Assembly: GCA_018240785.1 (NCBI GenBank) | Contig: JAFEFC010000015.1 | Span: forward strand, 1 to 64,000 | Reading direction: 5' to 3' | Origin: Pseudomonadota bacterium | Lineage (GTDB): Bacteria > Pseudomonadota > Gammaproteobacteria > Burkholderiales > Rhodocyclaceae | Length of the DNA: 64,000 nucleotides | Shown: positions 5,783 through 48,042 of the stretch, piece by piece | Layout of the letters: each line of letters begins with the position of its first letter | Position numbering within the stretch: the stretch's first letter is position 1 | Notes under the pieces: model-generated | Database searches by the model: none | Told to the model about the DNA's origin: nothing | What the model saw: only the letters and a program-made list of their open reading frames with translations | Program-made: the position numbers and the translations under genes

Positions 5783-6538
5783 TCAGAGGCTGCAGAAAGT
5801 GAGCTCGAAAGCCACATCGCGCTCGGCAATTCGCGGCCGCGCCACGGTCTCCGGCAGCAGGAAGCGGATGTTCAGGGCGTATTTGTTGGCGCTGATCTCG
5901 GGCACCACCGGTTCGCTGCGCGGAATCCGCACGCGCAGCATCTGCGCGCTGCGCCCGGCCATCGTCAGTTGATACGCGCCGGCCCGCGCGAGTTGGTTCT
6001 CGGGGTGGCCGCTGGCGCGCAGCAGTCGCAGCACGATCTCGAGGCCGTCGCGAATCGGTGCCATCGGATTGAGCCAGCCCTCGATGTCACGCCGTCGCAC
6101 TTCCGGCTCGCGGTTGAGCCAGTAGTGGTATGACGGCAGGTCGAACTCGCAGACTCCGCCCGGAATCGCCGCACGGCTGCGTATGCTCATCAGCCATTCG
6201 TTCTCGCGCAGGTACTGGCCGATCTTGCCGGCCATGGCCAGCAGCCCGGTTGAGGCCTGTTCGATCTCGTAGAGCGCGCCGGCCAGCGCCTCCTCGGAAA
6301 TTTCGGGATTGTTGCGGAAGGAGACCAGGATCTGCCGCTGTCGCTCGAGCTCCTGCACCAGATCGACCTTGAGGTCGGCCCGGCTCGCCACTTCGAGCGT
6401 TTCGAAGAGGGTCAGCAGCGCAATGTGATGATCCTGCGAGCCGTTGTTGGCGATGAAGTGCGCCAGCTTGAGAAAAAGATCCTCAAGGCGCAGCAGCGTG
6501 CGGATACGCTCGTTGAGGGGATATTCGTAGCTGATCAC
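5783..6538 (-). CDS. zapD: Cell division protein ZapD
   Basis: A 251-residue cytoplasmic protein that cross-links FtsZ filaments. The start is a GTG at 6538, giving (V/M)[18 protein letters not shown], the conserved ZapD N-terminus; the upstream open frame to 6721 has no family character. The central ELERQRQIL helix and the C-terminal [16 protein letters not shown] strand fit the family. It lies 106 bp downstream of coaE. Confidence 0.92.
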
Positions 6539-6644
6539 CGCACACAGTCCGCCAGTTTGGGTCCCGGATTTTTGCGTGGATGATAGCACAGGGCCCGCGG
6601 CCGCCCGTCCAGACTCCGGCGCAGCCTCGCGGGCCGCGGCCGCC

Positions 6645-7277
6645 TCAGGCCAGGGCTGAAGCGCGGACATAGCGTTCGTGCAGCGCATCCACCTGCGCGT
6701 GCAGTTGATCGAGCGTTCCACCGTTGTCGACGATGTCGTCGGCTACCGCACGGCGCTCGTCGCGGCTTGCCTGTGCAGCCATGATGGCGCGAACTTGCGC
6801 CTCGTCGAGGCCGTTGCGTGCCTTGACGCGTTCAAGCTGCAGTGCTTCGGGACAGTCCACCACGCAGACCCGGTCGCACCGTTCGCGGTATGTGCCGGAT
6901 TCGATCAGCAGCGGCACTGCAAGAATGACATAGGGGCTGGGCGCAGCCTCGCACTGGCGCTGGCTTTCGTCGCGGATCATCGGATGCAGGATGGCCTCGA
7001 GGCGCTTGCGCACCTGCGGATCGGCGAAGGCCGCGGCGCGCATCGCGGCGCGATCGAGGCTGCCGTCGGCGGCGACCACGGCGTCGCCGAAGGTGTCGCG
7101 GATGGCGGGCATGGCGCGCCCGCCAGCAGCGGTCAGCGCGTGGGCGATGGCGTCGGCATCGACCACGGTTGCGCCGAGAGCGGCGAAGCGGTCGGCTGCG
7201 GCGCTCTTGCCGCTGCCGATGCCGCCGGTCAGGCCGACGATGAGCGGCCGCCGTGGAGGGGACGAAATGGAGCTCAT
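6645..7277 (-). CDS. coaE: Dephospho-CoA kinase
   Basis: A 210-residue kinase for the last step of CoA synthesis. The P-loop is GLTGGIGSGKSAA (about residues 15-27), with DADAIAH and the lid/CoA region VPLLIESGTYRERCDRV. The start MSSISS is chosen because the 25 upstream codons run into the SPOR gene tail and lack family similarity. It shares an operon with coaX, which makes the first CoA intermediate. Confidence 0.93.
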   Translation of the reverse strand: MSSISSPPRRPLIVGLTGGIGSGKSAAADRFAALGATVVDADAIAHALTAAGGRAMPAIRDTFGDAVVAADGSLDRAAMRAAAFADPQVRKRLEAILHPMIRDESQRQCEAAPSPYVILAVPLLIESGTYRERCDRVCVVDCPEALQLERVKARNGLDEAQVRAIMAAQASRDERRAVADDIVDNGGTLDQLHAQVDALHERYVRASALA

Positions 7278-7287
7278 GAGATTGACC

Positions 7288-8061
7288 TCAGGGCGAACAG
7301 GTGGTGCGACGCTCGTCGAGTTGCGAGCGCCGCCCCTCCACCGCGGCGACACGTTCGCGCGGCAGGCTCGCCTGGATACGGAAACTCGCCGTCATGCGCG
7401 GTTCGATGCTTGCGTCGTGCGCGCCTTTGGCGCGCAGTTGGGCGAGCAGTTGCTGCGCGCCATTCTCGGTGCGGAACAGCCCCAGCGAGACGGCAAACTG
7501 GCTGGGGCCACTCTCTTGCACGATGAAAGTATCGGTGATGCCCATCTCATGCAGCTCGCGCACCCGCTTCTCGGCCTGTGTCCGGCCGCCCTGGGCTGGC
7601 GTCCTCACCCACCAGTTGGAGGGCGTGTCCTTGCGGCTGCGTACGTACTTGAAACCGCCAGCCTGGAGGCGGGCCGCAAGTCGATCCGCTTCGGCGGTAG
7701 ACAGGCCCGCCCAGGCAACGCAACTCGCTGGTGCGGTCGGCGGCGCGGCGGCGGCAGGCTCAAGCCTGGCGCCGACCGTTTCCGTCGGTACTGCTGCTGC
7801 AACCTCCGCCTGCGGACCCGGAGGCTCCGCAGGTGGCGAACTGCCCGGCTGCGGCTCCGTCGCTTCGTTGGGTGACGGGGCGGGGGCGGGCGTCTCTTCC
7901 GTGGCGGGCGTGATCAACCGAATCTGCTCGGCGTGCAACTGATTGGTGATGCGCTCGGGTTCTCCACCCGGCGCTGCGCTGCCCAGCCAGCCCTTGATGG
8001 CGGCGAAGGCGAGCGCGTTGAGCACGGCCAGCAGGATGAACAGGAAGCGCAGCGTCGTCAT
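7288..8061 (-). CDS. SPOR-domain membrane protein
   Basis: A 257-residue protein with an N-terminal transmembrane anchor (FLFILLAVLNALAFAAI, residues 6-22), a long Pro/Ala/Glu-rich linker (about 45-110) and a C-terminal SPOR-like domain (AGGFKYVRSRKDTPSNWWVR through FAVSLGLFRTENGAQQLLAQL). SPOR domains bind denuded septal peptidoglycan, so a role at the division site is likely, matching zapD in the same operon. The specific function is unknown. It starts 19 bp after trpB2. Confidence 0.85.
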   Translation of the reverse strand: MTTLRFLFILLAVLNALAFAAIKGWLGSAAPGGEPERITNQLHAEQIRLITPATEETPAPAPSPNEATEPQPGSSPPAEPPGPQAEVAAAVPTETVGARLEPAAAAPPTAPASCVAWAGLSTAEADRLAARLQAGGFKYVRSRKDTPSNWWVRTPAQGGRTQAEKRVRELHEMGITDTFIVQESGPSQFAVSLGLFRTENGAQQLLAQLRAKGAHDASIEPRMTASFRIQASLPRERVAAVEGRRSQLDERRTTCSP

Positions 8062-44207: not shown

Positions 44208-44948
44208 TCACTGCATGCGCGAACGGAAGTGCGCGCTGCAGCCTTCGAGTTCCAGCAGGTGGGGCAGCAGCTCGGAGTGCTTGTGCACGTGGAACACGAA
44301 GCGTGGCACATCCCGCCCGGTTGTCTGGGCCATGAAGGGTTCGCCCCAGAAGCTGAGCAGGGCCTCGCATCCGCCGCTGTGCTGGCTATCTGCGAGGATG
44401 AAGGAAAGCGTGCGCTCCAGCCTGCACCAGCGTGGCGGGCGCACACGCGCATGACCGGCGCAGGTGGCGATCTGTGGCGCGATCGTGCTGTCCCAGAGAG
44501 CGTGCTGGCTTTCGTCGAGCACGAACTGGATCGAACCGACCGCCGGATTGTCGAGCGCCGGGCGCAGCAGGGCATCGAACAGCGCGGGTGTGCGGTACAT
44601 CGACAGGCACACGTTGAACCAGATGGAGTCTCCGCTCATCGCGAGCAGGAAGCGGTGGTATTCCGTCTGCAATTGGCGCGGTCCGATGAGGGCCAGGCCG
44701 GGATGTTCGAGTGCAGCCTGCAGGGCGTCGACCTTGTGCGCCGTGCGCTCCACCTGCTCGGCGGTCAGCTCGTTGTTGCGGCTGTGGCGCATGAAATTGA
44801 TGAACAGCAGGCCAACCAGCGCCAGCAGGATCGGGAGGACGACCGCCTCATCGACGATGTGCAGCAGGTGCAGGACCGTCGCCACGAACGCCGCGGCGAT
44901 GCCGGCGATCGCATCCCACTCCCAGCGCATGGCCTGACGGATCTTCAT
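44208..44948 (-). CDS. Two-helix membrane protein beside the TIR cassette
   Basis: A 246-residue protein with two adjacent helices (AIAGIAAAFVATVLHLLHIV and AVVLPILLALVGLLFINFM, residues 13-55) and a soluble C-terminal domain of about 190 residues with FNVCLSMYRTPALFDALLRP, VGSIQFVLDESQ and FVFHVHKHSELLPHLLELEG. Family not recognised. GGAGG lies 7 nt before the ATG. It is 134 bp downstream of the SLOG-like ORF on the same strand, so it could be the membrane effector or sensor of the cassette; this is inferred from position only. Confidence 0.8.
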   Translation of the reverse strand: MKIRQAMRWEWDAIAGIAAAFVATVLHLLHIVDEAVVLPILLALVGLLFINFMRHSRNNELTAEQVERTAHKVDALQAALEHPGLALIGPRQLQTEYHRFLLAMSGDSIWFNVCLSMYRTPALFDALLRPALDNPAVGSIQFVLDESQHALWDSTIAPQIATCAGHARVRPPRWCRLERTLSFILADSQHSGGCEALLSFWGEPFMAQTTGRDVPRFVFHVHKHSELLPHLLELEGCSAHFRSRMQ

Positions 44949-45082
44949 CGCTTGTCCTCCACTGCTTTTCCAACATAGCACAGGGCCTGGTGGGCGCGGC
45001 GGGGCGGACGTGCTGAAGGAAAGGAATGTGTCGCGGAAAGGCGAGCCGGCTGCAGGGCCCTCATGGCGGCGGCGGTGAGGGA

Positions 45083-45859
45083 TCAGGCGGCAAGCATCAC
45101 GAACTGCTTGTTCTCGATCAGCCCCTTGTGCACCAGCGCTGCGGCGCGGCGCATGTCGCGCGTTTCCATCAGCTCGCGCGTCTCGATGTCGTCGAGGCCG
45201 GTCGCAAGGGCCTGGGGAAGCCTGCCCCTGGCGTTCTCGATCGCCGTCCCAAGCCGCGCGAGCCCGCTCTCGGTGTCGAGCACGCCGTAGGGCAGGGGCT
45301 GCATGTCCTGCAGCCTGCGCAGCGCTTCGAGCGCAGGCGCGTTCCCGAACTGCCAGTCGGCATGAAGCGTGTCGGGCAAGGGTGTTCCCGGCGGCGCGAG
45401 CAGTGCCCTGGCGACGACCTCCGCGGCGCCGCCGAAACCGCCCAGCAGGTAGAGCGGAACCCCGCGTTCGAGCGTGAGCAGGACTTCCTCGAAGATGCCC
45501 GGCAGGAAGCCGCTGAAGCCGGACATTCTGCCGCCCAGCACGATGCGCACGGACACCGGGGGTACCGATTCCGTGCGCGGCACGTCGGGGCTGGTCAGCG
45601 AGAGTCCATCCATTGCCATGCGGCGCATTGCGCTCAGGCAGATCGCGCTGTTGAGCGGGACGAGGCGCGGAGCATGCACCAGGTCGCGATCCGGGTCGAA
45701 ATCGCCGTCGGGAATGCAGGCGTCCGGGGCGATGCCGGCCATCGCCTGGTCGATGCGGAGGATCCGGCAACTGTTGATCCAGCGTGCCTCCAGCGCGGGC
45801 GTGATGCGCAGATAGTGGGGCCAGGCGCTGTAGTTGTAGAGCCGCCCGATCGGCAGCAC
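45083..45859 (-). CDS. SLOG/LOG-like nucleotide-binding protein, probably 5'-damaged
   Basis: The frame encodes GGRMSGFSGFLPGIFEEVLL followed by ERGVPLYLLGGFGGAAEVVA, the phosphate-binding glycine motifs of a SLOG-like (LOG/DprA-related) Rossmann fold. SLOG domains bind nucleotide-derived ligands and are often linked to TIR or SIR2 effectors. A GTG at 45859 is the only standard start, but the same frame stays open to 45970 with family-like sequence (GGRLQERNDNFTFDLLRLV) and no start codon. A TAA at 45971-45973 interrupts what would read SLA-Y-GGR if the stop were a Tyr codon. The gene is thus probably truncated. Confidence 0.62.
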   Translation of the reverse strand: MLPIGRLYNYSAWPHYLRITPALEARWINSCRILRIDQAMAGIAPDACIPDGDFDPDRDLVHAPRLVPLNSAICLSAMRRMAMDGLSLTSPDVPRTESVPPVSVRIVLGGRMSGFSGFLPGIFEEVLLTLERGVPLYLLGGFGGAAEVVARALLAPPGTPLPDTLHADWQFGNAPALEALRRLQDMQPLPYGVLDTESGLARLGTAIENARGRLPQALATGLDDIETRELMETRDMRRAAALVHKGLIENKQFVMLAA

Positions 45860-45970
45860 GTCGTCGGCGCCGCCCGATTGCTCGCGTTCGGCGGCCTCGT
45901 CCTGTTCGGCGCTGACCAGGCGCAGCAGGTCGAAGGTGAAGTTGTCGTTGCGCTCCTGCAGCCGCCCGCC

Positions 45971-46342
45971 TTAGGCGAGGCTGGCGCCCTGGCGCAGCAG
46001 CGGGCGCACGATGCGGTTCAGGACCGCGATGCCGATGCGGGCGAAAGCCCGCGCGTCGCGCCCGTGTCGCTTCATGATCTCGTGCGTGGTGGCGAAGAGC
46101 GAATGCAGGCTCTCCAGCGCAGTTGCCTCCACGCCCTGGCCGGGCGGCAGCGGCTGCGTGCTGATGCGTGTCGCCAGCTCGATGTAGAGCTCCCACGCCG
46201 CCTCGCGGTCGGCCTCATGGGGCGTGAATTCCGCGTCGACGAAGTGCTGCGGCAACTGCAGCTTCGCCAGGCCCCATTCGCCCGGCGCTATCCGGCTCAG
46301 CCGTCGTCGCCGGGACGTCGCGGTGGCGGCAACAGACCCCAC
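45971..46342 (-). CDS. Helical protein of the TIR cassette, probably 3'-truncated
   Basis: About 124 residues, mostly helical: LQLPQHFVDAEFTPHEADRE, WELYIELATRISTQPLP and TALESLHSLFATTHEIMKRH. The N-terminus overlaps the TIR gene's 3' end; the GTG at 46342 is a weak choice. The family is not named here, but I would expect more C-terminal sequence. The frame is continuous with the SLOG-like ORF across a single TAA. Confidence 0.6.
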   Translation of the reverse strand: MGSVAATATSRRRRLSRIAPGEWGLAKLQLPQHFVDAEFTPHEADREAAWELYIELATRISTQPLPPGQGVEATALESLHSLFATTHEIMKRHGRDARAFARIGIAVLNRIVRPLLRQGASLA

Positions 46343-46929
46343 AGGCGCCACCACGCCAGCATGATCTCGCTCGCCGCCTGCATCGCCTGTGCCGGATCGG
46401 CCATCATGCCGGGCAGGCGCTGCGCATAGCCGCCAGTCATCATCTGGTCGGCGTGGTCGAACAGCGGCGGCCGCAAGGGCACGAAATCCGCCGGCTGCAG
46501 CGGCGGGCAGGGCATCACCGCGGGCGCCTTTTCCTGCGGCAGATTCTTCCTGAGGAAGGCCTTGCGCCCGACGCGAGGCACGCTGGGGTAAAGATTCACG
46601 TAGCGGCGATCCTTCGCATACGTCTCCGCTTCGTCGTCCACCGGCCAGATGAACACGCGGCCGCGGGCACCGTCGAAGAAGCCCAACTCCCACGGCATCC
46701 AGTTCGAACCGGCGGAATGGGCCGACAGCACATAGACCAGCGACGCGCATTCGCGCATCGCCTTCAGCAAGGCGTCGGCGGTCTCCCGCGTCACCTCCTC
46801 CGGCTTCACCGCCGGCAGCGCCTCGTAATCGACGAACACGCGGTAGCCCAGCGCCTGCAGTTCATTGCGGACGAGGTCGACGATCGCGCGGTCGAGGGTG
46901 GCGTGGGACAGAAATATGTCGAATTGCAT
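46297..46929 (-). CDS. TIR-domain protein
   Basis: A 210-residue protein with an N-terminal TIR domain (residues 1-125): FDIFLSHATLDRAIVDLV opens strand A, GYRVFVDYEAL is strand B, and SAGSNWMPWELGFFDG carries the Glu expected to be the NADase catalytic residue. The C-terminal 85 residues are Pro-rich and uncharacterised. Bacterial TIR proteins cleave NAD or make cyclic ADP-ribose signals in anti-phage immunity. GGAG lies 8 nt before the ATG. It heads a minus-strand cassette with the helical and SLOG-like ORFs. Confidence 0.82.
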   Translation of the reverse strand: MQFDIFLSHATLDRAIVDLVRNELQALGYRVFVDYEALPAVKPEEVTRETADALLKAMRECASLVYVLSAHSAGSNWMPWELGFFDGARGRVFIWPVDDEAETYAKDRRYVNLYPSVPRVGRKAFLRKNLPQEKAPAVMPCPPLQPADFVPLRPPLFDHADQMMTGGYAQRLPGMMADPAQAMQAASEIMLAWWRLWGLLPPPRRPGDDG

Positions 46930-47493: not shown

Positions 47494-48042
47494 TCAGATC
47501 TTCCCGTCCAGCCCCATCTGATGGTACTTGTGAACGATCTTGTCCTGGTTCTCCAGCAGCCAGTCGATGTCGGGCTGGTTGCTCATCGCCTTCCGGATCG
47601 CCTTGAGCATGGCCTCGCGATGGATGTCGAATAGCGCCGCATGGTCGAGGTCCTTGACGGAGGTGATCTGCGGGTGCAGCCACACCGACACGATGATGCC
47701 GAGCTCGTTGGCTTTTTCCCGCGGGATGTAGCCGGCACGCACGGCGTCCAGCACGCCGTTGGCGATCGCCGCCTGAACCGTGCCCATCAGGATGTTGGTG
47801 TAGCGCTCGTCCTTCACCGTGACCTTGCTCACCATCAGCGTCAGCGGACGCACCTGGATGTCGGTGTTCAGAATGGCGAACACGCGCGTGTGGCCCTTGA
47901 CCTGATCGCCGGTCAGCGTGGCCAGCGCGGTGCCAACCGGGCCATCCAGCTCGCCGATGATCACCTCGGGCTCGGCCGCGGTGACGGCTTGTCCCGCGAC
48001 GACCAGCGCTTCGCCACTGCGGAAGAGGATGCGTTCGGACAT
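47494..48042 (-). CDS. Formaldehyde-activating-enzyme-like protein (Fae homologue)
   Basis: A 182-residue protein of the Fae fold. EALVVAGQAVTAAEPEVIIG aligns with the Fae N-terminus, and LMVSKVTVKDERYTNILMG with GYIPREKANELGIIVSVWLH follow as in Fae. Fae couples formaldehyde to tetrahydromethanopterin. The His expected in the AHIDLIIG motif reads AEPEVIIG here, so canonical activity is doubtful and a Fae2/Fae3-like role is more likely. No methanopterin genes are nearby. GGAG lies 8 nt before the ATG. Confidence 0.82.
   Translation of the reverse strand: MSERILFRSGEALVVAGQAVTAAEPEVIIGELDGPVGTALATLTGDQVKGHTRVFAILNTDIQVRPLTLMVSKVTVKDERYTNILMGTVQAAIANGVLDAVRAGYIPREKANELGIIVSVWLHPQITSVKDLDHAALFDIHREAMLKAIRKAMSNQPDIDWLLENQDKIVHKYHQMGLDGKI

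Follow-up and report, generated by a model that had tools for sequence, protein, structure and literature searches.

Background

Thoeris is among the closest described systems to the locus considered here. Thoeris types described more recently use other effectors, caspase-like ones for example, and TIR-SLOG systems are said to have been predicted earlier, by Burroughs and colleagues in 2015 and as LD_cluster2 in Pfam. The SLOG domain of ThsA is a sensor that binds a cyclic ADP-ribose (cADPR) isomer made by ThsB (PMC10022894, PMC11204291), and a third report (PMC9503650) has SLOG domains spanning enzymes to sensors and mentions TIR-SLOG-based antiviral systems, a pairing predicted in earlier work. 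The window analyzed here is a whole 64,000-nucleotide stretch (positions 1 to 64,000 of the forward strand) of contig JAFEFC010000015.1, from a Rhodocyclaceae assembly (GCA_018240785.1). Its minus strand carries, in order, a TIR open reading frame (ORF), a helical-protein frame, a SLOG-like frame, and a membrane-like ORF, which an initial annotation grouped as a candidate nucleotide-signaling immune cassette. The window carries a TIR1-helical-TIR2-SLOG operon that has recently decayed and whose intact form most likely works like Thoeris, a reading to which we give a probability of roughly 0.7. The initial placement in a TIR-SLOG family was a good guess, but this copy is a remnant from which the core partner, TIR2, has been deleted.

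Intact relatives and decay of the window copy

Scanning genome contigs with the SLOG frame of the window yielded three relatives: L034 (92% identity), L035 (83%; a Thauera metagenome-assembled genome, MAG), and L036 (51%; an Accumulibacter MAG). The complete four-gene operon is present in L034 and L035 and absent from the window. It consists of TIR1, a helical protein of 158 amino acids (aa), a 421-aa TIR2 whose second half matches a Pfam TIR domain, and a 355- to 360-aa SLOG protein, encoded by genes that overlap or closely follow one another. Of these four genes, TIR1 alone is whole in the window (Table 1).

By blastn, window positions 46282-45996 correspond to L034 3108-3394 and positions 46006-41791 to L034 4965-9160, so that 1,581 bp are absent from the window, the same figure that the L035 coordinates yield. 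A second gap, at the helical start, measures 111 bp relative to L034 and 95 bp relative to L035, and both deletion junctions, when their sequences are read by eye, fall in 6- to 7-bp repeats. Damage was also suggested by the frames themselves: the helical frame (ending at 45971) and the SLOG frame form one reading frame parted by a single TAA, and the SLOG ORF matches Pfam SLOG cluster 2 (PF18163) at positions 48-226 of 264 only, beginning at its first residue. A stop-tolerant search gives a match at positions 31-223 (97.4 bits) with one TAA inside, where 8/8 relatives in alignment A2 have tyrosine and the more divergent L012, outside A2, has leucine; the helical frame covers positions 8-105 of 157 in the profile built here. 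Given these deletions relative to L034 and L035, we reject the helical and SLOG frames as intact genes, and while the frames do share one strand as initially described, they are not four complete genes.

The nonsynonymous-to-synonymous substitution ratio (dN/dS) of TIR1 is 0.34 versus L034 and 0.24 versus L035. That of the helical and SLOG remnants is 0.18 to 0.22 versus both, so the decay looks recent, and the window copy affords a view of a predicted phage-defense operon early in its decay. A search for TIR2 across the genome to which the window belongs (assembly rated 99.99% complete; no positive-control genome included) returned no match. With TIR2 gone and SLOG broken, the window copy cannot run the relay proposed below.

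The TIR domain initially noted, with its WELGFF motif, is borne out by profile searches. The TIR1 translation (P0001) carries PWELGFF and matches Pfam TIR_2 (4.6e-10), PADLOC ThsB (8.2e-37), and, in a sequence search of solved structures, chain 8btn_B (1.4e-21), the last two placing it in the ThsB family; Pfam ThsB_TIR is not among its matches at E 1, which counts against that assignment. The SLOG-like frame, noted for its GGRMSGFSG and LLGGFGG motifs, is likewise a SLOG cluster 2 member by profile search (PF18163, 5.7e-24, 85.5 bits; cut-off, 25.3), and a sequence search of solved structures with SLOG returned nothing meaningful (best E 0.19). The helical frame has no Pfam or PADLOC match at E 1.

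We also note that TIR1 of L034 (L034:2350-3090) is 36 aa longer, because a stop codon was lost, and has 12 nonsynonymous versus 5 synonymous changes on its branch. In L035, a divergent TIR-nSTAND1 gene (L035:2-2068) lies directly upstream of the intact operon.

Table 1. Features of the decayed locus and its neighbor, in window coordinates
Feature	Position	Strand	Description
TIR1	46297..46929	-	ThsB-like TIR protein, 210 aa, intact
Deletion 1 junction	46277..46283	-	Helical start codon gone; from blastn coordinates and junction sequences
Helical gene fragment	45996..46282	-	Lacks its start codon and C-terminal third; DNA 94-96% identical to that of intact homologues
Deletion 2 junction	45996..46006	-	Helical 3' end, entire TIR2, and SLOG 5' end lost; from blastn coordinates
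In-frame TAA	45971..45973	-	Within SLOG, at the tyrosine position of relatives
SLOG cluster-2 fragment	45083..46006	-	~50 N-terminal residues missing, one stop; open part 45083-45970
P0004, membrane-like protein	44208..44948	-	Neighbor, judged a non-member

Recurrence of SLOG cluster 2 with TIR partners

We scanned 25 SLOG cluster-2 loci with five profiles built here; the loci are a fetched set and not a random sample. They comprise L034 to L036, five other search matches, G355, G328, G565, G344, 11 plasmid matches, 1 of 12 E. coli matches, and 1 of the 276 plasmid records that match the L047 query (13 of which cover at least 80% of it); the G667 SLOG match and the window itself were left out. 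The named loci span cyanobacteria, Bacteroidota, Bacillota, Actinomycetota, and alpha- and gammaproteobacteria.

A TIR2-type domain accompanies SLOG in 23 of the 25 loci, fused in 7 and adjacent in 16. A separate TIR gene lies within 5 kb of SLOG in 17/25 by profile scan, 16 of these matching ThsB-like profiles and the remaining one, in L082, the TIR2 profile only. From the eight TIR_2 matches in the 4.7 Mb of the window's genome, a TIR within 5 kb is expected by chance about 2% of the time. The helical gene is present in 6/25. Since the SLOG frame matches SLOG and TIR, helical, and SLOG homologues co-occur, the initial annotation escapes both of the ways in which it could have failed, namely a SLOG-like frame unlike SLOG and homologues never found together; its observation is partly confirmed and its interpretation partly supported.

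Of the ten standalone TIRs scanned, seven come from SLOG loci and the other three from loci of the helical gene; every one matches PADLOC ThsB models, and nine pass the Pfam ThsB_TIR cut-off. In TIR2, WC-x-x-E is kept in 10/10 aligned proteins; we take its Glu to be catalytic, with ThsB E85 as the parallel. A distant TIR-SLOG protein, in L014, has a subthreshold STALD match (E 0.032).

The two loci without TIR2, L047 and L075, are both of a SLOG-patatin type, and each has several ThsB-type TIR genes alongside. In L047 (5696-7312) SLOG cluster 2 is fused to a patatin-like lipase (by Pfam) beside four TIR genes, and the L075 protein (6001-7617), 87.5% identical to it over its full length, is annotated as a phospholipase of the cyclic-oligonucleotide-based antiphage signaling system (CBASS). 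Among the plasmid matches listed, the L047 homologue is called a CBASS cyclic GMP-AMP (cGAMP)-activated phospholipase in 8 of 10 rows; the gene table of the L075 stretch, which is incomplete, shows no CD-NTase.

Related TIR2-SLOG genes are found on plasmids of several phyla, and the SLOG-patatin form is on enterobacterial plasmids. On one E. coli chromosome, two annotated TIR genes, TIR2, and SLOG stand consecutively, and related TIR2-SLOG genes are present in 12 of 5,426 E. coli genomes, as matches to half of a Klebsiella query at 74% identity. In whole-genome draws of 398 genomes, SLOG cluster 2 occurs in seven and the helical family in five, the window's own genome counting toward both. Viral contigs yielded no confirmed relative when scanned with P0003, P0008, the L008 SLOG, or the TIR2 alignment.

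The helical family

The initial description of a helical protein is upheld by the intact homologue, which is modeled as a four-helix bundle (predicted local distance difference test, pLDDT, 78.5; predicted template modeling score, pTM, 0.73). Foldseek with this model gives no PDB match at E 0.001 or better and 241 at E 10 or better, a sequence search of solved structures returns nothing meaningful (best E 1), and this TIR partner has no weighty match in Pfam, PADLOC, or NCBIfam. Invariant among nine aligned members are A36-W37, E42, T45-R46, R100-P101, W106-H107, and Y138.

The helical gene is beside or near TIR genes in L010, L019 to L026, L034, L035, L044, L076, and L048 to L050, with the TIR in L020, L025, and L026 identified by eye or from annotation context. 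A transposase separates the two genes in L024, and L020 has two helical copies, one of which adjoins the TIR. We count two loci against the pairing: L057, with no TIR near the helical gene, and L056, at a contig start.

Scanning viral contigs with the helical alignment found three IMG/VR relatives (L048:5336-6444, L049:5386-6477, and L050:1-1292), all TIR-helical pairs in which the TIR passes the ThsB_TIR cut-off and the profile scan finds no SLOG gene in the available stretch. The L048 helical protein has no match in phage records. By eye, the L049 pair lies between recombinase-like genes, and the L050 pair is at a contig end. In L022 (4950-7574), a helical domain opens an 874-aa protein beside TIR genes, and this protein has a GGGIRS stretch that is presumably serine-lipase-like.

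Proposed mechanism and alternatives

We propose a relay for the intact operon by analogy with Thoeris, as the SLOG of ThsA binds the cADPR isomer made by ThsB. TIR1, as a ThsB-like enzyme, would sense infection and make a nucleotide derived from nicotinamide adenine dinucleotide (NAD); the SLOG cluster-2 protein would bind this nucleotide and turn on its partner TIR2, and the C-terminal TIR domain of TIR2 would destroy NAD, aborting the infection. The four-helix-bundle protein may regulate or link the TIR proteins. We favor this relay on three grounds: fusions join SLOG to effectors of two unrelated types, ThsB-type TIRs lie next to it, often more than one, and the WC-x-x-E of TIR2 is kept. 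L047 would then represent the same SLOG sensor class with a different effector, a patatin lipase.

Several points weigh against this reading. The full four-gene form is seen in two close relatives only, L036 yielding just TIR2 and SLOG, and no separate TIR is found by profile in 8 of the 25 SLOG loci (among these eight, L007 carries a TIR by annotation that went undetected in the profile scan). The profiles were partly built from loci later counted, L014 matches the TIR2 profile only weakly (~1e-4), TIR2 is broken in L009, a Rhizobium plasmid locus, and 3 of the 10 standalone TIRs match PADLOC PDC-M50B better than ThsB. Structure prediction of the intact SLOG protein (P0006) from three sequences reached a mean pLDDT of 37.9 and was unused. 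The dN/dS of ~0.2 in the remnants leaves room for a residual role, the split of the assembly into 58 contigs makes an assembly error conceivable, and SLOG may act as an enzyme and not sense a ligand. The mechanism as a whole is argued from sequence and analogy. L009 is also of interest as another decaying copy, with TIR2 split and interrupted by an IS3 element and SLOG intact (L009:2254-5573).

One alternative, which we consider unlikely, is that SLOG cluster 2 is a LOG-like N-glycosidase acting on the TIR product, either to destroy it or to mature it, the operon being a switch-off module and not a sensor-effector pair. The G-x-x-EE and GG columns are invariant in alignment A1, and PG-x-x-EE in A4, and we presume that they recall the LOG active-site motif. 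The breadth of SLOG functions given in PMC9503650, from enzymes to sensors, also speaks for this alternative. Against it, the fusions of SLOG, to TIR2 in 7/25 loci and to patatin in L047, are what a gate controlling an effector would look like, the SLOG of ThsA is a sensor (PMC10022894, PMC11204291), and we retain the Thoeris-like relay for the intact operon.

For the window copy, it is conceivable but quite unlikely that the locus functions in reduced form, with TIR1 alone or together with a shortened helical-SLOG product serving as a minimal NADase or inhibitor. TIR1 is intact at a dN/dS of 0.24 to 0.34, the remnants stand at ~0.2, and the three IMG/VR contigs have TIR-helical pairs without SLOG in the available stretch. 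The helical frame, however, lacks its native start and the invariant W106, H107, L128, and Y138 downstream of R100-P101, and SLOG lacks ~50 N-terminal residues and contains a stop. That the gap is an assembly or binning artifact in an organism with an intact operon is very improbable: the 58 contigs leave some room for it, but there are three separate lesions, two with 6- to 7-bp junction repeats, and the search for TIR2 in this nearly complete assembly, run as described above, was empty. A functional cassette of all four listed genes, the membrane protein included, is scarcely credible, for while they share a strand and close spacing, and in L034 too the membrane-like gene P0004 comes after the operon, helical and SLOG are fragments here and P0004 recurs elsewhere apart from the operon, as set out below.

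On the reading of a decayed operon with a Thoeris-like intact form, a broader view can be offered tentatively, at slightly less than an even chance: SLOG cluster 2 may sense the ligand in an additional, widespread class of Thoeris-like systems. Standalone ThsB-type TIRs would produce a messenger, and SLOG, on reading it, would set off a TIR NADase in some systems and a patatin lipase in others; the helical family would be a new partner specific to TIRs, found also in stand-alone TIR-helical pairs on prophage-like contigs. If SLOG cluster 2 does read TIR products, its ligand may be a further immune messenger beside those known, and certain proteins that now bear the name CBASS phospholipase would have to be relabeled.

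Flanking genes

P0004 follows the SLOG frame after a 134-bp gap and has hydrophobic stretches by eye, with no Pfam match at E 1. The initial annotation allowed that it might belong to the set, and of the TIR, helical, SLOG, and membrane genes listed there, the first three do recur together elsewhere but the fourth is not linked to them. We reject P0004 as an operon member on two grounds: the intact operon of L035 has no P0004 next to it, and no TIR, helical, or SLOG gene is found by profile in 7/7 loci of its homologues, a small contrast to the SLOG loci, since the profile set matches nothing in them. These homologues (45-68% identical) are found on halophilic archaeal and Acidithiobacillus plasmids and in relatives from the same order, and annotation of two of their loci places NnrS, hydroxylamine reductase, hemerythrin, and a succinate dehydrogenase subunit among the neighbors. 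Upstream of the cassette lies an ORF at 47494-48042, which we take to resemble a formaldehyde-activating enzyme.

Comparison with known systems

The initial view that the locus is related to Thoeris yet distinct from it holds; none of the scanned proteins has a SIR2, STALD, or macro domain. Like Thoeris type I, the system has ThsB-type standalone TIRs, often several, next to a SLOG-bearing unit. In contrast to type I, the effector candidate is TIR2 (or patatin) without SIR2, the SLOG is PF18163 and not STALD and is often a separate polypeptide, and there is an extra helical protein. Neither SIR2 nor STALD is present in the scanned proteins of the locus and its intact relatives; a STALD search of the whole window genome was also empty, but its control likewise matched nowhere. 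Thoeris type II shares the ThsB-type TIR. It differs in its macro domain, for which P0001-P0004, P0006-P0008, P0010, P0011, P0014, and P0015 have no match, and P0004 is not linked to TIR genes elsewhere.

In the literature searched, which lacks most subscription papers, we did not meet TIR2, its ThsB partners, the helical partner, or the patatin variant, and we do not claim their absence in print. Cat1, a CRISPR-associated CARF-TIR effector, is similar in having a TIR NADase gated by a nucleotide-binding domain, as proposed here, and it matches TIR2 weakly in sequence (E 0.13); it differs in its CARF sensor and in its signal, a cyclic oligoadenylate from type III CRISPR. With the TIR-SLOG systems predicted earlier, the likeness is the TIR-SLOG pairing itself. 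The window locus thus represents, in decayed form, a known kind that so far as our searches go is uncharacterized. Its intact form lends itself to testing as a Thoeris-like architecture in which both the SLOG class and the effectors, TIR or lipase, are different.

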